From positions 5,738,592 to 5,802,591 of the forward strand of contig NC_049981.1 of the NCBI RefSeq assembly GCF_000003815.2: a DNA stretch of 64,000 bases, written 5' to 3'. This DNA comes from Branchiostoma floridae. Taxonomy: Eukaryota; Chordata; Leptocardii; Amphioxiformes; Branchiostomatidae. The position numbers and the translations under genes are program-made. Below are positions 39,454 through 56,349 of the stretch, in pieces (position 1 is the stretch's first letter; each line of letters starts with the position of its first letter). The notes beneath the pieces are model-generated. The model did no database searches. It saw nothing but the letters and a program-made list of their open reading frames with translations, and was not told the DNA's origin.

Positions 39454-39686
39454 CTAGTGATACACGAAGTTGTGCCTCCGTTTGTGGTACTCCTTATCAT
39501 GGAAACATTTCCACATGCGCGCCAGCTCCTGGTGACGATGCTCCTCCAGGGTGGACCAGAGGGATGACGTCTCGGACTGCTTCTCTCGCAGAATCTCGCG
39601 AGACTCTAACTGCAGGCGCCGACACATCCGCGGGATCTGCGCGTTCAGCTCTTCAGCGTTGTACCCGATGACGTCATCTATCATGC
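39454..39686 (-). CDS. hypX: HypX-like exon 9: C-terminal helices and stop
   Basis: Phase 1 in; it opens GMIDDVIGYNAEELNAQIPR, continues through a charged helical region (EKQSETSSLWSTLEEHRHQE) and ends RRHNFVYH with TAG at 39454-39456, like the R-x-x-FVY-K end of bacterial HypX. Confidence 0.92.
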
Positions 39687-42600
39687 CTAGGAAAAACAGA
39701 ATGAGAAGAGGATAAGAACTGTATTTTTTTTTTCTTTTAAAGAACTAAGATAGTACAAGGCAGAATAAGACTTACCCCTGTCCCAACCTACCTTTGTTGC
39801 GTTTGGTATTTGATCCTTTAGACAACGAATCTCAGAATCTATCACTATTACCAGGGCACAGTTACCAAACGTACTCGCCTGACCTACCTGGAACATCTTT
39901 ACACATGAGCCAGACCCATCTGAGCTCCATTCTTGTGACTTATTCATTCAGCAGACCCACGATGCTAAGGACCCAAGTTTGACATCTATTCATCCATCCA
40001 TCCATTCATTCATTGATACGCACTCCACAAAATCACCCATGATTTAGACCCACACGTGCCTCACACCAGACACACCCCTGTCCCACAACAGACCCACCCA
40101 TGCCACGAACACACCCATACCCAACACTAGACCCACCCTTGTCCCAGAACAGCTACTCGGGTAAGTTACGGCCTGTGATTCGATGAAGCTTGCCGAGGAG
40201 TGAAAAAGGGCGCGGTCCCTCAAGGTTACCAGGGCGATGGAACGGAACATGAAATTCGAACCACTACGTGTCCGCAGTTGACCCCGCTTGACCACAACGT
40301 AGCAGAACGGTCCAATGTCATAATGTAACGATACATTGCGAAAATAGGAACTCACTATGTATGGGGCACACTCACCACTTTTGGTAAAACGTCAAAATTC
40401 TAACCGTATTAGATATTGATGAAGAATGTATCAAATATTGACATAATTCGATGCCTATGACAAAAAGAGGCCCTCGCGGAAGCCGCAAAATGGTACCGTC
40501 CGAGCCCGTTCGATCGAACGGCCGAACCCTTGGGTTGTGAAATGGCGGGAAAACGACAGCGGCGCTGGCAGCGGTTCTGAAGGACTGTTACCATCGCATT
40601 TACGGGCTTCGTCCTCGGTGACAACAGTACTTTTGCTGACAATATAGACAAATTCGTATTTATAATCCCTTTTAAAAGAAATTTATCCATCGCTATTTGT
40701 TTTGATCATGAAAGGATTTCCTCTAGAGCGGATTATTGACCAAAAATTAGAAAAAAAAATCCATTTTACCTATTTTTTACCCAAAAAAAGTTATGATGAA
40801 TTAATATACAACAAAATAGCGACGGACAAACTAAATCAACTTGATTTTATCTGTCATCCTGTGAAATATGAGGGTCCAGAACGTTGTCTCCACCGAGGAC
40901 AGGGCACATGAAATGAACCTAATATTTTTTAACCAAAATGTGTGTTTTTTAACCCAAAAATCTATCATATCAACATAATTTGTCCGGTGTTTTATTTCAT
41001 TTAATTACTACTAGCACCTTGTGAAATTTCATTGCAATACGACAATGCTATCGAATTTTACAAGCATGTACCCATTTTACCTCGTCTACCGCAGTGTCAC
41101 ATGCCGTAATTGACCAGAGGAGACCCACCCATACCACAAACACCCCCTTGCCCCCATTTGAGACGTACCTTTGTCCCGGGCTTCCGTAGCCAGCAGTGGC
41201 TGCAGCTCATTGGTCAGTTCCTCTGATGCGGAGCTTCCCACCCTACGGGGCAGGGAGTATGTCCAGTACTCGGACCCGAAGAGCGCCATCTTGCGGTAGT
41301 GCGGATTCAGCACCACCCCCGCGTGACTCCAAACCTGTAACATTAGTTGGAAGACATAATATCTCGATGACATATTCCGAATATGCAAACGAGCGCCACA
41401 TTTCCATAATCTATATTTGGTTATAAGCACCTTCAAATAACTCACACATGTCATTTTCCTTTCTAACTTACTTAGACTTCATCGCAAAACAATGCTCACG
41501 GAGTCACTCAAGAGCTTTGGGTTACAGTACTGTATTGAGAAGAAAGATGTCTGTTAAACCTTGGCTTAAAATGTTTCAGATTGTACCCCACAGGGAAGCA
41601 AGTCCGTGCAAGCTTATTCAATAACGATGTAGTTCTAGGAAAGAACTGTAGGCCGTAGGCAACGTTTGAAGTGCTCAAAATTCCAAAACTCTACCTTGTC
41701 AGCAGCGAGCGCCATCATGACCCCTCCGGCCCCTGCGTTCCCCTGCAGCGCTGCCACTGTCACCTTACTGCGCATGCTGAATATCGCCTTCACTACGTCA
41801 TCGATGGCTGTGATGTTAGCCCACGATTCGGTGGCGGCACATTCGGAGTTCTCGATGACGTTGAGGTGGATCCCGTTGCTGAAGAAATTGTACCTGTAAA
41901 TAAGATTTCGAACAAAAAATGTTTTCTTCCATTATGAACTTTGTCAGAAGTTGCAAGTAAGCTAACATCCAAGGCGGTCCCAATATGCTTGTAAACCATG
42001 CGACAATACTCTAGCTATAATATCATTTGATAAGCACTTGTCACATGTCAAGGCGACCATATAGTGGTCAGGGTTTCTTTTTCTTTGTTAATTATGTTTA
42101 GAATTAATAAGTTACCAAAATGGATTTAAGTTATCAAAATTAATAAGCTTCAAGTTATCATCCAGATACGGACGATTGAACAGTCTAGAATCAGCTCTTC
42201 ACCCCAAAAGTCAGGTTTATACGTTAGCCAACTTATTGATAAGTTAGTAAAGTTGATAACGGTGGCCGCCCTAAGATGCCGACTTTTTTACGCGCTCGAT
42301 CTCACGGCGCTCCATTACTAGTTGCCAAAGAGTGGTCAAGTTTTGATCAATAAATTTTTAGCACATTCATCTAGAGACCATACTTGAATAAGGAAGGCAT
42401 CCATACTGTTCATGAACCCTTCACCCTTTGCGTTACAACTGGCAAACACCGATGACGATATCGTGAATATAACTTCCGATTTTGAGCCGCGTTAAACAGT
42501 GCGCCCTAACTTGCCCCGCGCGCTTTTGGAATTTTCTCTCTTCGGAAGCTGGTGACCAATTTAGACAAAAATAAATAAAAATTCTAATTTTATGATATAT

Positions 42601-45600
42601 TAGCTTTCTTTTTACAGTAGATTGTGATTGTGTGTGCTTCTTGTCTCCCGCGAGGAGGGCTAAATCTTTCAAAAAACGACAACGCCAAAATCAGAAAAAA
42701 AAACTCTGTGTACGTATTGGGAAACATATTTGACATCACTCTGTGAAATTTCATTTTTATAGACGGTGCGAATCATTTGTTAGAGTAACAATTCTTTTGG
42801 GCGTTTGCTCGTCTGCCACCTGCGGGGCCACGCTCCCTGGGGAAAACAACGGCGGTGATGCTTATGTTGTTTTTTTCTATGGCCGGTCTTCTACTCAACA
42901 AACATTTGAAGACCAATATTTGTAGTGTTTTGTGAAGCTTTATTTCTTATGTGTATGACAGTTGTGTGGCTGTTTTTTACTGGTTGTTTATTTATGGACA
43001 CGAGACACCAATATCTAGTAACAGGTGACCACAGTTATTCGGCGCCATCAACATTATTGTGAAAATTCTATCTTCAAAAAAAGGGAAGTGAATATGTATT
43101 AAAAAAAATTAATAGAAAAAAAGCTGTTTGTTTGGACTTACTTTATTTACCTTTCTAATCGTCATAGTCAGTGGCAACAAACACGGCGTACTTATGCATA
43201 ATAAGATCAGCAAAAATCCGGGCATCTTAGGGCAGGGGGGCATCTTAGGGCGGCCCCCGTTAGGTTAGTTCTTACCCTCCCATCAAGACGACCATAGTAC
43301 AGTCTGGGTCCGCCTCTACACCACACAGAACCTTCTCCAGCCTCTTACACTGGTTTGTGCTCATGGCGCCGTTGTAGAAGTCGAAGTGCACGTAGCAGAC
43401 GCCGTCTTGGCGCGTCGTCCAGACGTCTTGGAACGTCTTGGGCCTGGTGCCGTAAGGAAGGGGCTCGCAGTGGTCGATGGGAAGGGACGTGACGTCAACT
43501 GAAGGGAGGACGGACGTGGCGGGAAGCTTCAGACTGGTCTTCTTGGGGGAGGCCTGGTAATGAATGGTAAAGCGGGGGATACTAGTATATCACAAGCATA
43601 GTGGCTGTGATGTCCGTGCTGTTGTATCCTTAAGATGAGGTTTAATTCCAGAAATTAATTTGCGCGTTTCATCTTCTATGCTATGTATAGAGCGACATGT
43701 ACTATATACTGAACTTTGTGTAGCACACTTTTTATGAGTATTGTGCCAGATTATAGTACTTTGTGTGGCTACAAACTTGACCCAGACAGTTGAAAACAGT
43801 GATGGGCGTTAAGTTGTGGTCCACTGTTTATCGTACATGTGGAAAAGAGTTAGGGGAGTTTCCAGAAGATAAAAACTGTACACAGCTGATGTCTTCTTTG
43901 ATACCACTGGAGGAATTAATCTTTTTATCATTCCTTCCTTCCGTCCCTATTTCTTCACTTTCTACTTCTTTACATCCTCCCTGTTCCTTTTTCTTTCTTT
44001 CCCAATCCCTTTTTCCTTCCTTCCATCTTTTCTTACTTTCCCTATTCAACCACTTGTCCTTACCTTAAGATGTGAGATCCACACGGCAGTGTCCTGTCCA
44101 CAGGCCACTAGTACGGCACCGTTTCTCCTGCCAATGACGTCACCAGGTGTGACGTCACGCTCTTTCTTTAGATCCCACACCATGCCAGGGTCACCTTCAA
44201 CGCATGCGCCGAACAACGCAAACTCGTGCTTCAACTGCTGACCTTTGTTTGGGATAAAAAAAAAGATTATCAAAACATATTGTCGTAAATTGAAAATAAA
44301 AACACAAAGCAAAACAAAATAAAACAAAAAAATAAATATCAGCTCTAATCCTACAGCTTTTGACACTCTTACTTCATCATGCTTTATTTTTCGTATTTTA
44401 GGTTTAAAGGTTCTTTTTTATCTGAATTATTTCTAAAAATCGGCGAAAATTAAACAACAGTGACGGAGATTAAATTGAGTTGAGTTTAGATTTATTGAGA
44501 TGCCCTTTAGCTGATATTGAGCCCAATCTTCCAGGGTTCATACAATAAAAGTGTGAACAAACATGCATCCGAAAATAATTTCACCAGGTTGGTAGAATAT
44601 AGGTGATAGGAGAATTCTTATACACAACCAGGTAAAACTTATTTACTTACCGGGATGAAGGGGAATACAAACTTAGCCAGTGTTCTCGCAGCGAAAGCGC
44701 CACCTACATCAGCCACACATATCTGCAAGAAGCAGAACTCCAATCAGAAACTCTGAGGAAGGTGTCTAATAGACACCGAAACGTAAGCATGTTTTACATG
44801 GTTGTGTTCAAGAATTCTCCTATAACCAAACAAACATACATGCAGTATGTACAAAAAGATACTCCTTCATTTAGCCCAAACTAACCTTGCACGGCCACAC
44901 GGAGTGTACCTAACGCGCCCGGCTGGGAGTCGCAGGCCCGCACGGCCCGCGCCACATCCTCCGCCGACAGCGCCCAGTCAACCCGACGGTCCTCCACCGT
45001 CAACTTTCGCTTCAGCTCACCTTTCACCTAAAAATTATGGAAGAGCTTTTACTTATAATCCAACAGTCCAGGGTTCAAGACTGTATTTCTTTGGATTTAT
45101 TAAATATCAAAGTTGCCAATACACTTGCGCAGGTGTCTAAAGGTAGCGCTGATCTTCATTTTCTGTAGCCTTTGGGCCACACATTTGTGCAAGCCACTAC
45201 AGTGTTGTGTTGTGTGTTGGTGTTGAGTGCTAAATAAAGAATGCAGCATATGCCATTTTAAAGTCTTAGGTATGACTCGGCCGGGGATCGAACTCACGAC
45301 CTACAGAATGCAAGGCAAGCACTCTACCCAGTCGGCCATTCACACGTTGTGGAGCGAAATAAAGTCTTATCTAATCGTAGGATGTCGTAGGATTTTGCGA
45401 TTTCCAAAGATGAGTCAATCGTTGATAGAGATCCAGGATTTTGTACGACAGGTGCATGATCATCTAAAGAATGCCTGCAGTTTCGAAGATCGTGCGCATT
45501 TATTGACTTTTAAGCAAAAACTTCCATGGCCTTCCATCAACATACCTCTGGGTGCCCATAGTCCAGTGGTATTGGAGGTACTCCTTGCTCCCAAGCGTCT

Positions 45601-45899
45601 ATCGCTTTCAAAACAGAGACAATCGCTGCCTGTGTCACTTCCTTGCCATACAGACTAGACTTGGTCGCCTGGCGGTTCACTTGGAATTTGCAGGTGGCCC
45701 AAATATCCCCCGAGTCCATCGTCTCTGCTGCCTGCAGTACCGTTACTCCCCATTCGGTGGCGCCCTCCTATAGTGCAAACAATTAACTAGAACTCTATAT
45801 GTTTAACTTATAAATACCAGTGACCAAAATGGTATTGGATATACAGAGAAAGAGAGAGAGGCATAAAGAGAGAGAGATAGAGAGAAAGAGGGAGGGAGG

Positions 45900-45944
<45 letters not shown>

Positions 45945-47753
45945 TTATAGCATGCAAAATATTAGCAGAATAAAATGGAAATCGCATCAGAGAGTTTAAA
46001 AATAAAAGATAACTAGAAAGGTAATATTTGCAAGCAAATACAGAATGTTACCTTCACATGTTGTAGTCTAACACTGGCAACTGTTTTGTTCATTCTTATT
46101 TGAACACATTTCTAAATGTAGTGACCCGAGCCCCTCTAGATCTGACATTTGCTACATTATGTAACCGAACACCACATGGTGCCTGCTACTTTACCGGTTA
46201 CCATGGTGACAGCCGTCTGATCCAGGTCGTTGACCTTATTTGTGCGGAAAAGAAGAAGAAACAAAGCAAAATAATATGTTCCCTTCTGTGAAGGTAACAT
46301 AAAAAGAAAAAAAGGAAAGAAGGGAGCAGGTGAGACAAAAAGAAGGATCATAGAAAGAAAAGGGAGAGGGAGAGAAAAGGGATAGAGATAGAGATGGGAG
46401 AGAGAGAGAGGGAAAGAGAGAGAAAGAGGGACAGACGAACGTTTATGTGAAAGCAGTACACGCTCACCTTGAGCGCCCAGTCAATTGAGGAGGGCCCTTC
46501 GTCTCCTGGGATACCCGGATGTACAATTAGAACGGGTCGAGCGGGATTGTTGAACAGGCTGGCGGGAACTCGGCGGGTCAGGAACGGGCACACCACCTAA
46601 TAAGGTAGAGATAGCAGACTTCACCCCTTCACTGACTGTAAGCGCAATCAATAAAACACTGCCGTAAAGAAACCCCTCCAACATAGTAGCCTCCATAGCA
46701 GGCTCTTTGGGGCCTTTTTTGGCTCAAAATACACTTTTGCTGGACATTTCTATTTTGTACTCGGTCGCTGATAGCTAGCGTTTTCTGATTGCCGGCCTCC
46801 AATCAGAAAACGCCAGCAATTAGCGACCGATTGCATATAGAAATGGCCAAAAGTGTACTATGAGCCAAAAAAAGGCCCCAAAGAGCCTGCTATGGAGGCT
46901 ACCAACATAGCGCCTTATGACTAAAGGCAATCAAGAGACAGCAGACTCTCTAATTTTACATTTACTGTGAGCAGCTTCTGGCGGTTAAGATGGAAACTGC
47001 AGCACTTTGACCCCTTCCGTTTGCCACTTAGGCCACGTTGATTTGATTATACCGATCCGATGGTATCCTCTTGTAACTGCAAAACGGATGCGATCGTCGA
47101 AATAAAAATAAAAAAAAAGTTTGGTCAACGTGGATATACATGTATTTGCTCATTTTGCAACTGCTTTGTACGATATACTGCAATTCAAAACTTTTTTTTA
47201 TTCTTTGGGGGCGGTAGAAAATTTATGCACGAGCGGATGTCGTCCATATAATCAAATCAACATGGCATTATGGCAACTTGGCTTCTAGAACTGCGACTTC
47301 AGAGAAAATATAATGTCTGCCTACCAAGTCCGGTTGGTCCGTTTCTACCACCTCCGTCATCTTCTCGCCACGTGGGTTGTCATGCACCATCACGTGATGG
47401 CCACGTGACAGCAACTCCAGGTACAGCCGTTGGGACAGCCCGTTAAAAGAGTTGCAAAGGAAACTAATTTTGAGAGGTTTTCCCGCCGTTTTTGTAAGAT
47501 TTGGGGCGGCAAAATCAACCCACGGGAGAGGTGAATACTCCGATGATTGCTGGGATAGCTGGCGCATTGGCTGATGGGACGCCTGTCCTAATGGCTGCTG
47601 GGAAGGTGATCGTTGCTGCAGTGACGATACGGCAGTTCCCCGAGTGGCAGACTTCTGCAGATACAGCATGGATCGCCAGGCGGGGCGGTTGATCATGACG
47701 GCTCTACGCATCAGCATCTTGACATATGGGAAAACGAATAGTGTGAACTGCAA
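39454..47753 (-). CDS. hypX: HypX/HoxX-like formyltransferase-crotonase fusion protein (9 exons)
   Basis: Nine exons join in consistent phase to a protein of about 646 residues (658 from the first in-frame ATG). Bacterial HypX is about 550-580. The extra N-terminal stretch of about 85 residues is Arg/Ser/Gln-rich and starts MLMRRAVMINRPAWRSMLY, a plausible mitochondrial presequence. The N-terminal half is a formyltransferase domain (ISFLCNSFNGLSQRLYLEL; VHPGIPGDEGPSSIDWAL; MDSGDIWA). The C-terminal half is an enoyl-CoA hydratase/crotonase domain (FFSNGIHLNVIENSECAATE; GNAGAGGVMMALAADK; LNPHYRKMALFGSEYWTYSL). In bacteria HypX takes a formyl group from N10-formyl-tetrahydrofolate to CoA and releases CO for the [NiFe]-hydrogenase cofactor. 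The role in an animal is unknown. All exons are intact and all donors and acceptors fit GT/AG. Confidence 0.93.
41169..41334 (-). CDS. hypX: HypX-like exon 8: HypX-specific crotonase segment
   Basis: 166 nt, phase 0 in and 1 out. It encodes VVLNPHYRKMALFGSEYWTY and SLPRRVGSSASEELT. The LNPHY-K-M-x-L-x-GSEYWTYxLPRRVG block is diagnostic for HypX against other crotonases. Confidence 0.95.
41695..41893 (-). CDS. hypX: HypX-like exon 7: CoA/oxyanion-hole core
   Basis: 199 nt, phase 2 in and 0 out. It encodes FFSNGIHLNVIENSECAATE, SWANITAIDDVV and ALQGNAGAGGVMMALAADK. The SNGIHLN and GNAGAGG loops correspond to the two oxyanion-hole segments of crotonases in their HypX-specific form. Confidence 0.95.
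42262..43262. repeat. Possible 1-kb element with inverted ends in HypX-like intron 6
   Basis: AACGGTGGCCGCCCTAAGATG on the left is matched, inverted, by CATCTTAGGGCGGCCCCCGTT on the right; the right end repeats GGCATCTTAGGGC a second time. The interior is non-coding. No clear target duplication was found, so an element is suggested but not proven. Confidence 0.45.
43276..43553 (-). CDS. hypX: HypX-like exon 6: start of the crotonase domain
   Basis: 278 nt, phase 0 in and 2 out. It contains a Pro-rich linker, then VCYVHFDFYNGAMSTNQCKR and CTMVVLMGG, the first beta-alpha unit of the crotonase fold. Confidence 0.9.
44064..44242 (-). CDS. hypX: HypX-like exon 5: end of the formyltransferase C-terminal subdomain
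   Basis: 179 nt, phase 1 in and 0 out. It encodes FALFGACVEGDPGMVWDLK and VIGRRNGAVLVACGQDTAVW, corresponding to the H-L-Y-x-A-H..G..R-x-G-A-V-x-V-A-T-x-D-G-A-V-W-I element of HypX. Confidence 0.9.
44635..44720 (+). pseudogene. Possible Penelope-like remnant in HypX-like intron 4
   Basis: The plus strand reads YRDEGEYKLSQ, similar to the NRDGGRYxLS motif of the Penelope-like remnant at 21887. GACACCGAAACGT follows, a sequence style often found at 3' ends of such elements. The match is short. Confidence 0.35.
44886..45027 (-). CDS. hypX: HypX-like exon 4: linker region
   Basis: 142 nt, phase 0 in and 1 out. It encodes RRVDWALSAEDVARAVRACD and SQPGALGTLRV, the conserved I-D-W..R-x-x-D-S-Q-P-G stretch between the two enzyme domains of HypX. 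Confidence 0.9.
45121..45345 (-). mobile_element. tRNA-derived SINE in HypX-like intron 3
   Basis: On the minus strand a tRNA-like head has an A-box-like GGCCGACTGGGTAGAGTGC and a B-box GAGTTCGATCCCCGGCC. The body continues with AGTCATACCTAAGACTTTAA and a non-tRNA tail. The head differs from a functional tRNA, and the downstream body marks it as a SINE of the tRNA-derived class found across invertebrates. Confidence 0.7.
45546..45767 (-). CDS. hypX: HypX-like exon 3: end of the catalytic formyltransferase core
   Basis: 222 nt, phase 0/0. It encodes EGATEWGVTVLQAAETMDSG then DIWATCKFQV, with the Asp-x-Gly motif that supplies the catalytic Asp in the fold. SSLYGKEVTQAAIVSVLKAI follows, matching the bacterial KSSLYR-E-V-T-x-A-A segment. 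Confidence 0.93.
45846..45941. repeat. (GA)n purine tract
   Basis: Imperfect AGAG repeat just upstream, in gene orientation, of HypX-like exon 3. A second GA tract occupies about 46346-46437 beside exon 2. Confidence 0.9.
46468..46596 (-). CDS. hypX: HypX-like exon 2: formyl-folate-site motif
   Basis: 129 nt, phase 0/0. It encodes VVCPFLTRRVPASLF then VLIVHPGIPGDEGPSSIDWA, the HypX signature that replaces the N-x-HPSLLP loop of ordinary transformylases. The His-Pro pair is kept, but the Asn two residues before His is Ile. Confidence 0.93.
46687..46901. mobile_element. Foldback MITE with 9-bp target duplication (Mutator-like)
   Basis: A 215-bp palindromic element starts TAGCCTCCATAGCAGGCTC and ends GAGCCTGCTATGGAGGCTA, with arms of about 100 bp around GATTGCCGGCCTCC. 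CCAACATAG occurs directly on both sides (46678-46686 and 46902-46910). A 9-bp duplication is typical of the Mutator/MULE superfamily. It sits in HypX-like intron 1. Confidence 0.85.
47031..47267. mobile_element. Harbinger-like MITE, copy 2
   Basis: Ends GGCCACGTTGATTTGATTAT and ATAATCAAATCAACATGGC, flanked by TTA (47028-47030 and 47268-47270). About 237 bp; same family as the copy at 27410 but without the nested hAT-like insert. Its edge lies about 58 bp from HypX-like exon 1. Confidence 0.75.
47325..47753 (-). CDS. hypX: HypX-like exon 1: presequence and start of formyltransferase
   Basis: Open from an ATG at 47753; a second in-frame ATG at 47717 gives a better mitochondrial-type presequence and is my preferred start. 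A Gln/Ser-rich linker precedes KPLKISFLCNSFNGLSQRLY, the first strand and helix of the HypX formyltransferase domain. It ends at GACTTG/GTAGGC in phase 0. An acceptor-like CATATGTCAAG just before the second ATG leaves open a non-coding upstream exon. Confidence 0.85.
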
Positions 47754-51599: not shown

Positions 51600-51779
51600 T
51601 CTACAAATTTATTTTGACAATCCTTGGTATGTGAGAACTGGGCCTATAGCCGTACATTCTGTGCCGCTTTAAAATGCCCTTTGAGTCCTGCATGTGGTTT
51701 TCAGAATCTTCACATCTAGACGCTTCTTCAATACGTTTGTTCTGGCTCTGTTCTCCATAAGATAAATCTAGAAGCATAA
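51600..51779. repeat. Left flank of the satellite, duplicated at 63590-63688
   Basis: GAACTGGGCCTATAGCCGTACATTCTGTGC here aligns to GGACTGGGACTATGGCCGAACATTCTGTGC in pieces at 63590, continuing through TTGAG/TTGGAGCC and an AATCTT..CATCTA-like end. On the minus strand this copy is open for about 58 codons (RHRMYGYRPSSHIPRIVKIN then stop); the other copy has stops. Confidence 0.6.
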
Positions 51780-54700
51780 AGACTTCTGTTGCTATGATCG
51801 TAAACAGTTCTGTTGCTGTTATCGTAAAGACTTCTGTTGCTATGATCGTAAACAGTTCTGTTGCTGTTATCGTAAAGACTTCTGTTGCTATGATCGTAAA
51901 CACTTCTGTTGCTGTTATCGTGAAGACTTCTGTTGCTATGATCGTAAACAGTTCTGTTGCTGTTATCGTGAAGACTTCTGTTGCTATGATCGTAAACAGT
52001 TCTGTTGCTGTTATCGCGAAGACTTATGTTGCTATGATCGTAAACAGTTCTGTTGCTGTTATCGTAAAGACTTCTGTTGCTATGATCGTAAACAGTTCTG
52101 TTGCTGTTATCGTAAAGACTTCTGTTGCTATGATCGTAAACAGTTCTGTTGCTGTTACGTAAAGACTTCTGTTGCTATGATCGTAAACAGTTCTGTTGCT
52201 GTTATCGTAAAGACTTCTGTTGCTATGATCGTAAAGACTTCTGTTGCTATGATCGTAAACAGTTCTGTTGCTGTTATCGTAAAGACTTCTGTTGCTATGA
52301 TCGTAAACAGTTCTGTTGCTGTTATCGTAAAGACTTCTGTTGCTATGATCGTAAACAGTTCTGTTGCTGTTACGTAAAGACTTCTGTTGCTATTATCGTA
52401 AAGACTTCTGTTGCTGTTATCGTAAAGACTTCTGTTGCTATGATCGTAAACAGTTCTGTTGCTGTTATCGTGAAGACTTCTGTTGCTATGATCGTAAACA
52501 GTTCTGTTGCTGTTATCGCGAAGACTTATGTTGCTATGATCGTAAACAGTTCTGTTGCTGTTATCGTAAAGACTTCTGTTGCTATGATCGTAAACAGTTC
52601 TGTTGCTGTTATCGTAAAGACTTCTGTTGCTATGATCGTAAACAGTTCTGTTGCTGTTACGTAAAGACTTCTGTTGCTATTATCGTAAAGACTTCTGTTG
52701 CTGTTATCGTAAAGACTTCTGTTGCTATGATCGTAAACAGTTCTGTTGCTGTTATCGTAAAGACTTCTGTTGCTATGATCGTAAACAGTTCTGTTGCTGT
52801 TATCGTAAAGACTTCTGTTGCTATTATCGTAAACAGTTCTGTTGCTGTTATCGTAAAGACTTCTGTTGCTATGATCGTAAAGACTTCTGTTGCTATGATC
52901 GTAAACAGTTCTGTTGCTGTTATCGTAAAGACTTCTGTTGCTATGATCGTAAACAGTTCTGTTGCTGTTATCGTAAAGACTTCTGTTGCTATGATCGTAA
53001 AGACTTCTGTTGCTATGATCGTAAACAGTTCTGTTGCTGTTATCGTAAAGACTTCTGTTGCTATGATCGTAAACAGTTCTGTTGCTGTTATCGTAAAGAC
53101 TTCTGTTGCTATGATCGTAAACAGTTCTGTTGCTGTTATCGTAAAGACTTCTGTTGCTATGATCGTAAAGACTTCTGTTGCTATGATCGTAAACAGTTCT
53201 GTTGCTGTTATCGTGAAGACTTCTGTTGCTATGATCGTAAACAGTTCTGTTGCTGTTATCGTAAAGACTTCTGTTGCTATGATCGTAAACAGTTCTGTTG
53301 CTGTTATCGTAAAGATTTCTGTTGCTATGATCGTAAAGACTTCTGTTGCTGTGATCGTAAATACTTCTGTTGCTGTTATCTTAAAGACTTCTGTTGCTGT
53401 TATCTTAAAGACTTCTGTTGCTATGATCGTAAACAGTTCTGTTGCTGTTATCGTGAAGACTTCTGTTGCTATGATCCTAAACAGTTCTGTTGCTGTTATC
53501 GTAAAGAATTCTGTTGCTATGATCGTAAATACTTCTTTTGCTATGATCGTGAAGACTTCTGTTGCAACAATTGTATACATTTCTGTTGCAATGATCGTAT
53601 AGATTTCTGTTGCTATCATCATATAGATTTCTGTTGCTATGATCGTAAATTGTTCAGTTGCTATGATCCTAAATGGTTCTGTTGCTATGATCCGAAAGGG
53701 TTCTGTTGCTATATCCCTAAATGGTTATGTTGCTATAATTTCTCAAGGGCCCTGTTGCTAAAATCCTAAAGTGTTCTGTTGCTATGATCTTAAAAGTTTA
53801 ATTCTGTTGCCATGATCCTAAATGGTTCTGTTGCTATGATTTCTAAAGGGCCCTGTTGCTAAAATCCTAAAGTGTTCTGTTGCTATGATCTTAAAAGTTT
53901 AATTCTGTTGCTATGATCCGAAATGGTTCTGTTGCTATGATTTCTAAAAGTCCTGCTGCTAATATAATAAAGAGTTATGTTGCTATGATCCTAAAGTTTG
54001 TAGTTGCTATGATCCGAAATGGTTCTGTTGCTATGATTTCTAAATGGCCCTGTTGCTAAAATCCTAAAGTGTTCTGTTGCTATGATCTTAAAAGTTTAAT
54101 TCTGTTGCTATGATCCGGAATGGTTCTGTTGCTATGATTTCTAAAAGTCCTGCTGCTAATATAATAAAGAGTTATGTTGCTATGATCCTAAAGGTTGTAG
54201 TTGCTATGATCCTAAATGGCCCTGTTGCTAAAATCCTAAAGTGTTCTGTTGCTATGATCTTAAAAGTTTAATTCTGTTGCTATGATCTTAAAAGTTAATT
54301 CTGTTGCTATGATCCAAAATGGTTCTGTTGCTATGATTTCTAAAGGGCCCTGTTGCTAAAATCCTAAATTGTTCTGTTGCTATGATCTTAAAAGTTTAAT
54401 GCTGTTGCTATGATCCAAAATGGTTCTGTTGCTATGATTTCTAAAAGCTATGCTGCTAATATAATAAAGAGTTATGTTGCTATGATCCTAAAGGTTGTAG
54501 TTGCTATGATCCTAAATGGTTCAGTTGCTATGATCCTAAATGGTTCTGTTGCTATGATCCGAAATGGTTATGTTGCTATGATCCTAAATAGTTCAGTTCT
54601 TATGATCCTAAATGGTTCAGTTGCTATGATCCTAAATGGTTCTGTTGCTATGATAATAAATGGTTCTGTTGCTATGATCCTAAAGGGCCTTGTTGCTAAA

Positions 54701-55160
54701 ATCCTAAAGTGTTCTGTTGCTATGATCCTAAAGGGTTAATTCTATTGCTATGATCCTAAGGGGTTCTGTTGCTATGATTTCAAAAAGTCCTGCTGCTAAT
54801 GTCATAAAGAGTTATGTTGCTATAATCTTAAAGGGTTCAGTTGCTATGATCCTAAATGGTTCTGTTGCTATGATCCGAAATGGTTATGATGCTATAATCC
54901 TAATAGTTCAGTTCTTATGATCCTAAATGGTTCAGTTGCTATGATCCTAAATGGTTCTGTTGCTATGATCCTAAATGGTTCTGTTGCTATGATCCGAAAG
55001 GGTTCTGTTGCTATGATCCTAAATGGTTCTGTTGCTATGATCCGAAATGGTTCTGTTGCTATGACCCTAGAGGGTTCTGTTGCTATGATCCGAAATGGTT
55101 CTGTTGCTATGACCCTAGAGGGTTGTGTTGTTATGATCCTAAAGGGTTCTGTTGCTATGA
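51780..55160. repeat. 24-bp tandem satellite array (about 3.4 kb)
   Basis: The unit is close to TTCTGTTGCTATGATCGTAAA plus CAG or GAC. Up to about 53650 it mostly alternates two variants (TATGATCGTAAACAG and TGTTATCGTAAAGAC) as a 48-bp dimer, with larger blocks of roughly 285 bp marked by a unit with a one-base loss (GTTACGTAAAG near 52157, 52371 and 52657). From 53650 to 55160 units are diverged (GATCCTAAATGG, AAAATCCTAAAGTG). Because 24 is a multiple of three, long open frames appear on both strands (for example FCCYDRKQFCCCYRKD). They shift frame at the deleted units and lack start, splice or domain evidence, so I treat the array as non-coding. Confidence 0.93.
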
Positions 55161-56349
55161 TCAGCAGAGACAACCATATCAAACCAGGCACTGTAACTTC
55201 GAAGACAGACTCCTGATAACTTTGTTTCCTGCAGAAACTTACAGTGGTCTATAAATCTACCTCACCTAAAAATGTATGCCCCACAACAAACCTTCGGTAC
55301 TGTACAGTGTCTGAAATGTTACTGACTTGCTACTGTTATCCCATTTATAACCTCTACGGTATTATACACAAGCACAAAAATATCAGTACAACAACGTGCC
55401 CGAAACGCACTGTATGTTCTCAAACCTAGTAGGAAACCAATTACATTGTAAACCATATGATACATGTAAAAAGCAGGAAGAAAACTTCAAGACCTTCACT
55501 TCGCAGTATGTTTGAGCTATTTTGAAAGGACAGCTATCTGAGACAATAATACATGTAGAAGATAAGAAAATAAATTGACTGTTCAAAACAAATCACACAG
55601 CTTTAAGACCCTAAATTCGCAGTGTGTTTGAGCTATTGACAAGGTCAGCGCTGTCGCATACATACAGTGTGGCTATGAGAAGCATACTGGTGACGTCTCC
55701 CGGTGTTTAATTACCACCCCCCACCCCCAAGGGCTGTGGAAATGTTTGCTCAGCATGACGACCATTGCAATCCCCATCAAGACTTCCAACACCCGAAAAC
55801 ATGTTATAAGTGAACCTAGTGTAATAACAGGTGCCAAATGTATCACAGCTTCTGAGTACTACGGTTGTACCAAAGGCCGAAGAATAGAAATCTGCCTTTC
55901 ACAGTGACGTGATCGTGTTTTCATGGGTCCGGTCCTAAAGACTTCTCCAGTTTGGCAAGCGTAAATGTGTCCAAACCTAGTGAGAGGTACAGGGATTTTC
56001 TATAGAAATGATCTAAGATTCCCTGGTGGAACATCATACTGTTCAGCTGTGTTTCTTGGAGGGTTTAAACAAAACTATTTGGCAACTCCTCAGGGGTGGA
56101 ATAATTATGTTATCTTTTTGACGAGTGATATTATAAAGATCGTCGATGCAGATAAAATGAGAACGGCTTTTAGAAAAATGTAGTCATAATCAACACAATA
56201 ACCACATTTGACCCTTTTTTCAAGCAGTTGAAGACGTATACAACTATTCAAAAGAGTTCAATGAAATCCGTCCATCCTCAGTTTGGTGCATCTTATCGTC
56301 AAGTTTAGATTGTTTCATATCTTCATACTGGTGATCACGACACTTCTCA
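55161..56349. other. No gene recognised
   Basis: Unique-looking sequence between the satellite and the tail of the LRR receptor gene. It may include the 3' UTR of that gene on the minus strand, but no polyadenylation signal was assigned. Confidence 0.4.

Follow-up and report, generated by a model that had tools for sequence, protein, structure and literature searches.

HypX (HoxX) has been described from bacteria such as Cupriavidus, Rhizobium and Aquifex, where it takes part in the maturation of oxygen-tolerant NiFe-hydrogenases. The bacterial enzyme makes carbon monoxide (CO) from 10-formyl-tetrahydrofolate (10-formyl-THF) via formyl-coenzyme A (formyl-CoA) (PMC12134894). In the Aquifex protein, His74, Asp80 and Asp109 are assigned to formyl transfer, and Tyr416 and Glu426 to decarbonylation (Muraki et al. 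2019, PMC6802093). Here we describe a HypX gene in an animal, the lancelet Branchiostoma floridae. It lies on the minus strand of C3:5738592-5802591, a stretch of 64,000 nucleotides referred to below as the window, and its product is probably a mitochondrial 10-formyl-THF decarbonylase in which CO production or formyl removal serves a purpose other than hydrogenase maturation. Among the matches listed from the open-licence literature in PMC, no paper on an animal HypX was found; the text matches in PMC5491491 and PMC4374905 were unrelated and were set aside.

A HypX family member in the lancelet

By sequence and by fold the lancelet protein is a member of the HypX family. A phmmer comparison with Aquifex HoxX/HypX gave E 8e-112 over residues 79-644 of the lancelet protein, and Pfam finds Formyl_trans_N (PF00551), Formyl_trans_C (PF02911) and ECH_1 (PF00378) in HypX order, so that the fusion of a formyltransferase domain to a crotonase-like domain is present. 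An AlphaFold model built from a 30-row alignment has a mean predicted local distance difference test score of 82.1 (residues 1-60 being under 50) and a predicted template modelling (TM) score of 0.82. When the model was compared with the PDB by Foldseek, the first eight matches were HypX crystal structures, among them 6j0p (E 1.7e-56, root mean square deviation 2.2, TM score 0.90 by target and 0.79 by query); the matches that followed were single-domain or partial, to formyltransferases and crotonases. No HypX model was among the 25 best rows of an NCBIfam search; the top rows were models of ordinary formyltransferases and crotonases, and in every one the score stayed far under the cut-off. 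An earlier note on this DNA, made from the letters of the window, had called the protein a HypX/HoxX-like enzyme, and the phmmer match, the Pfam order and the Foldseek result bear out that it is a HypX and not an ordinary formyltransferase or crotonase.

Other known relatives resemble one half of the protein each. The hydrolase domain of ALDH1L (10-formyl-THF dehydrogenase) and methionyl-tRNA formyltransferase have a formyltransferase fold like that of the N-terminal half but are without a crotonase domain. The enoyl-CoA hydratase/isomerase (crotonase) family has the fold of the C-terminal half but is not fused to a formyltransferase, and its match is far weaker than that of HypX. With the HypX of bacterial hydrogenase maturation the lancelet protein shares domain order, fold and the five putative catalytic residues, whereas it differs in the introns of its gene, a presequence-like N-terminus, an identity of about 35-45% and hydrogenase machinery that was not found.

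The gene consists of nine exons that join in frame from 47717 to 39454 into 646 amino acids (aa) with 0 internal stops. Each of the eight introns has GT-AG borders; the exon-end phases are 0, 0, 0, 1, 0, 2, 0 and 1. The intact, spliced nine-exon gene of the earlier note is thus confirmed, and the five motif blocks quoted there are all present in the joined translation; the upper limit given there, 47753, is where the open frame ends, with the start ATG at 47717. The features are as follows.

Exon 1, 47325..47717, minus strand: aa 1-131, start ATG, predicted mitochondrial presequence and start of the formyltransferase domain
Predicted presequence, 47541..47717, minus strand: aa 1-59, with 8 Lys/Arg and 0 acidic residues
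Intron 1, 46597..47324, minus strand: in the window copy only, with two elements resembling miniature inverted-repeat transposable elements at 46686-46902 (35-nucleotide perfect arms) and 47032-47266
Exon 2, 46468..46596, minus strand: aa 132-174, with His157 and Asp163 (A. aeolicus His74 and Asp80)
Exon 3, 45546..45767, minus strand: aa 175-248, with Asp192 (A. aeolicus Asp109)
Exon 4, 44886..45027, minus strand: aa 249-295, with Ser282 and Gln283 (the CoA 3'-phosphate contacts Ser194 and Gln195)
Exon 5, 44064..44242, minus strand: aa 296-355, C-terminal part of the formyltransferase, with a short insertion common to both intact lancelet copies
Exon 6, 43276..43553, minus strand: aa 356-447, linker and first part of the crotonase-like domain, with Asn416 (Asn306)
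Exon 7, 41695..41893, minus strand: aa 448-514, blocks FSNGIHLN and GNAGAGGV, 100% identical in aa to copy 2
Exon 8, 41169..41334, minus strand: aa 515-569, with Tyr527 and Glu536 (Tyr416 and Glu426, putative decarbonylation residues)
Exon 9, 39454..39686, minus strand: aa 570-646, FVYH end and stop TAG

Catalytic and cofactor sites

Residues were compared in an alignment of 92 bacterial HypX and the two intact copies of the lancelet. The formyl-transfer residues are kept as His157, Asp163 and Asp192 in copy 1, the gene of the window, and the decarbonylation residues as Tyr527 and Glu536; both sets are also kept in copy 2. Among the bacteria, His74, Asp80, Asp109 and Glu426 are invariant (92 of 92); at the position of Tyr416, 84 have Tyr and eight have Thr. 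The eight HypX with Thr are from Bacteroidota (L030, L041, L060, L062, L073, L076, L086 and L087) and adjoin hyp genes. Of the CoA contacts compared (Gln15, Ser194, Gln195, Asn306, Arg131 and Arg9), the first four are kept in the lancelet and the two Arg are replaced. HypX has an Asp in place of the triad Ser of ALDH1L and methionyl-tRNA formyltransferase (PMC6802093), and in the lancelet this Asp is Asp163.

Bacterial HypX starts near lancelet residue 82, and the lancelet N-terminus is therefore an extension. The first acidic residue is at 60, 71 and 43 in copies 1, 2 and 3, preceded by 8, 9 and 6 Lys or Arg, and the hydrophobic moments are 0.57, 0.56 and 0.68, respectively. In the AlphaFold model the predicted presequence is of low confidence and has no secondary structure. 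In all three copies this extension is rich in Arg, acid-free at its start and amphipathic, which suggests a mitochondrial presequence.

Gene copies and selection

When the genome (an assembly of 513 Mb in 431 contigs) was searched with a protein query, HypX exons turned up at three places: the window gene, C3:6124727-6131946 and C203:17303-24150. The second copy, about 340 kb away (retrieved as L012, C3:6123500-6133400), is intact and encodes 657 aa in eight exons; at least one extra partial copy of its last exon lies downstream. Between copies 1 and 2 the identity is 82.0%, the synonymous divergence (dS) 0.529 and the nonsynonymous divergence (dN) 0.109; the dN/dS ratio is 0.206, or 0.183 for the mature part (method of Nei and Gojobori, custom script). 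Both intact copies are under purifying selection. Exons 6 and 7 (41695-43553) have a dS between the two copies of only 0.28 and 0.175, as against 0.37-0.88 elsewhere, which suggests gene conversion. The third copy, on a 120-kb unplaced contig (L013, C203:16000-25900), is interrupted by stops and a frame step, which points to a pseudogene or to poor assembly. Intron 1 is absent from copies 2 and 3, where its site is read through, so that it was either gained in the window copy or lost from the others.

The other genes of the window are of animal type: a low-density lipoprotein receptor A gene with 17 repeats, two leucine-rich repeat genes and a reverse transcriptase/retroelement. At 51601-55254, short tandem units form a long array in which several frames stay open on each of the two strands.

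HypX without hydrogenase

Exon-by-exon searches of the lancelet genome gave 0 matches to HypD and 0 to the NiFe-hydrogenase large subunit. Of the HypA-F and hydrogenase search that the earlier note had proposed, these two parts have thus come out empty, and HypA, HypB, HypC, HypE and HypF were not searched. As HypD and the hydrogenase were not found, a use of HypX outside hydrogenase, the idea of the earlier note, is the natural reading.

HypX without hydrogenase is not peculiar to animals. When genome contigs were first scanned with only the lancelet protein as query, no relative came up; an alignment query then gave 80 loci. In total, 92 bacterial loci were used throughout: 12 from a set of 46 plasmid records, and the 80 best among 588 confirmed matches, a choice that favours rows resembling lancelet HypX. 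HypD was present in 64 of the 80 bacterial HypX genomes and gave no match in 16, 12 of which are not labelled as metagenome-assembled genomes. In the fetched flanks, hypD, hypE or the large subunit was found at 52 of the 92 loci and none of them at 40, a number that is an upper bound because some flanks were short. These hydrogenase-unlinked loci, from Pseudomonas, Lysobacter, Nocardia, Marinimicrobium, Peribacillus and others, are like the lancelet gene in having no hydrogenase genes in the flanks, and many of them encode the one-residue-shorter loop, of the MALFGSE/MGLYGSE type, that is common to lancelet HypX. Unlike the lancelet gene, some adjoin genes for MHYT sensors.

At seven of the 92 loci hypX has an MHYT-domain gene as a near neighbour, at a distance of 2 to 1081 bases (Cellvibrionaceae L057, Marinimicrobium L099, Peribacillus L026, Streptomyces L097, Nocardia L070 and L092, and Methylococcaceae L042), on the same strand in six, and Pfam confirms the domain in all seven. 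The Peribacillus protein is an MHYT-PAS-GGDEF-EAL protein, and that of Methylococcaceae an MHYT-PAS histidine kinase with receiver domains. All seven pairings are among the 40 unlinked loci and none among the 52 hydrogenase-linked ones (Fisher p 0.002), a statistic that is partly post hoc, as the pairing was first noticed by eye in the neighbour lists of ten loci. Farther from hypX, 1.48 Mb of flank contained no MHYT match. The number expected by chance within 1.1 kb is 0.016, calculated from 44 MHYT proteins in 30 genomes (176.5 Mb) with a count made by hand, a model seeded with three of the seven counted loci and a distance limit set after the farthest match, at 1081 bases. The 30 genomes represent 30 of 35 unlinked genome-contig loci (L033, L053, L059, L061 and L085 were left out), and 23 of them have an MHYT protein. 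The seven loci amount to about four lineages, and the probability of four or more is 3e-9 under the same chance model. In CoxC, the MHYT domain detects CO by way of copper (PMC11347149). The pairing is most simply explained by bacteria in which HypX produces CO and MHYT detects it, and it suggests a possible self-made CO signal unconnected with hydrogenase. No paper on HypX with MHYT was found among the matches listed from the open-licence PMC literature.

Relationship to bacterial HypX

All trees and comparisons were made with bacterial and lancelet sequences. Against the 92 bacterial HypX the window protein reaches at most 44.9% identity, with a median of 42%, whereas even the least connected of the 92 has a neighbour at 48%. 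The lancelet pair sits on a long stem, of 1.53 changes per column in a quick tree of 94 rows and 1.29 in a careful tree of 49. In the latter it falls inside a set of 20 rows (support 99/96), in which 17 of the 18 bacterial rows are hydrogenase-unlinked, compared with 10 of the remaining 29. A constrained tree that places the pair with those 29 is not rejected (approximately unbiased test, p 0.23); the sister or donor group suggested by the 49-row tree was therefore dropped, and none is claimed. The earlier note had posed the choice between ancient inheritance and transfer from bacteria and looked to a tree with bacterial, fungal and invertebrate HypX. The bacterial part of that tree, now built, gives a long branch without a close bacterial relative, with which old inheritance and an old transfer would both be compatible.

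Proposed function and rival explanations

In the mechanism that we propose, the N-terminal domain would pass the formyl group of 10-formyl-THF to a tightly held CoA, the CoA would then swing through the internal cavity of HypX, and the C-terminal crotonase-like domain would split formyl-CoA into CO and CoA. The net reaction in mitochondria would be the conversion of 10-formyl-THF to THF and CO. Since the searches turned up no hydrogenase machinery, mitochondria would use the CO, or the loss of formyl groups, for some other purpose; local CO signalling is favoured, with one-carbon disposal as the runner-up. CO is favoured as the wanted product because the decarbonylation site is kept in two diverged copies, which would be hard to explain otherwise.

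Several observations weigh against this proposal. Two contacts with the CoA diphosphate are lost, Arg131 being replaced by Gly215 in copy 1 and Ser226 in copy 2, and Arg9 by Ser; PMC6802093 reports that the contacts made by Arg9, Gln15, Arg131 and Arg542 are not crucial for CoA binding. Copy 2 has Gln148 at the THF-adjacent position Leu56, which is Leu in 92 of 92 bacteria and is kept as Leu in copy 1. When exon-by-exon searches like those for HypD were made with PF00378 and PF00551, the exons of HypX itself were not among the matches listed, so that a divergent, intron-split gene can escape such a search. An MHYT search of the lancelet genome gave 0 matches, and the bacterial pairing would bear on the use of CO in the lancelet by analogy only. 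Finally, the mitochondrial location is predicted from the composition of the N-terminus.

Among the alternatives the one that survives best, although we think it unlikely, is a one-carbon valve that disposes of excess mitochondrial 10-formyl-THF and regenerates THF, with CO as a by-product. Mitochondria contain a pool of 10-formyl-THF, and in vertebrates ALDH1L2 carries out a comparable disposal of it. The substrate-site residues that are kept in lancelet HypX would suit such a role, and the lancelet has other Formyl_trans_N genes, at C9, C5 and C3:15.39 Mb, which also speak for it. However, to keep the decarbonylation site Tyr527/Glu536 would be costly if CO, a poison of cytochrome oxidase, were waste, and the pairing of hypX with MHYT in bacteria points, by analogy, to CO as the product that matters.

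Less probable still is a lancelet protein that no longer decarbonylates and instead yields formyl-CoA or formate, or formylates some other acceptor. Both intact copies lack the contacts of Arg131 and Arg9, copy 2 has an altered THF pocket and the branch is long (1.29-1.53 changes per column), findings that would be in keeping with this. Set against them are the five putative catalytic residues, kept in both intact copies, two of them in the CO-forming domain. The complete identity of exon 7 between the copies points the same way, but its dS of 0.175 suggests conversion and not constraint alone.

That HypX matures a NiFe-hydrogenase missed by the assembly or by the search is very improbable. 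In favour of it are the two family models that overlooked HypX itself in exon-by-exon searches, and the omission of HypF and HypC. On the other side, HypD and the large subunit gave no match; HypD is far better conserved, its best matches in 64 bacterial genomes scoring 246-542 bits; and a HypX protein query detected the lancelet HypX exons at E 1e-15 or better.

A gene recently acquired from bacteria, or a contaminant, the second of which the earlier note had named as a refutation, can be put aside: the family is otherwise bacterial in all sequences searched, but eight spliceosomal introns, a contig of 34.2 Mb (C3), animal neighbours, three copies and a best bacterial identity below that of the least connected bacterium to its neighbour all contradict it. 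The mitochondrial 10-formyl-THF decarbonylase, put to a use outside hydrogenase, thus stays the preferred reading.

Implications

The production of CO by animals is generally attributed to haem oxygenase. Wittenberg-era work on the siphonophore gland reportedly identified serine as the source of the CO carbon without identifying the enzyme. The siphonophore gas gland is known to make CO (PMC6820529, PMC3916360), and the first paper cites work of 1960-62 by Wittenberg and others on the source of the gland CO and, from 1962, on folates in the Physalia gland. A search for Physalia, carbon monoxide and serine in the open-licence PMC literature gave unrelated matches only. As a lead, and by analogy, the HypX reaction would fit the activity that the CO pathway of the siphonophore float needs.

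Taken together, these threads allow a broader reading, which we offer tentatively. HypX may be a dedicated, haem-independent CO synthase of mitochondria, fed by serine and folate, with the CO of the lancelet acting as a local signal or regulator and the enzyme of the siphonophore float being a cnidarian relative. CO signalling by HypX with MHYT in bacteria would then be older and ancestral, and hydrogenase maturation one specialised use.

If the proposal is true, animals would have a second, haem-free way to make CO, one that draws on a folate cofactor and is tied to serine and one-carbon metabolism. The CO would be made in mitochondria, the apparent site of the enzyme, where CO acts on cytochrome oxidase. 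The old question of the source of siphonophore CO would also become testable through HypX.

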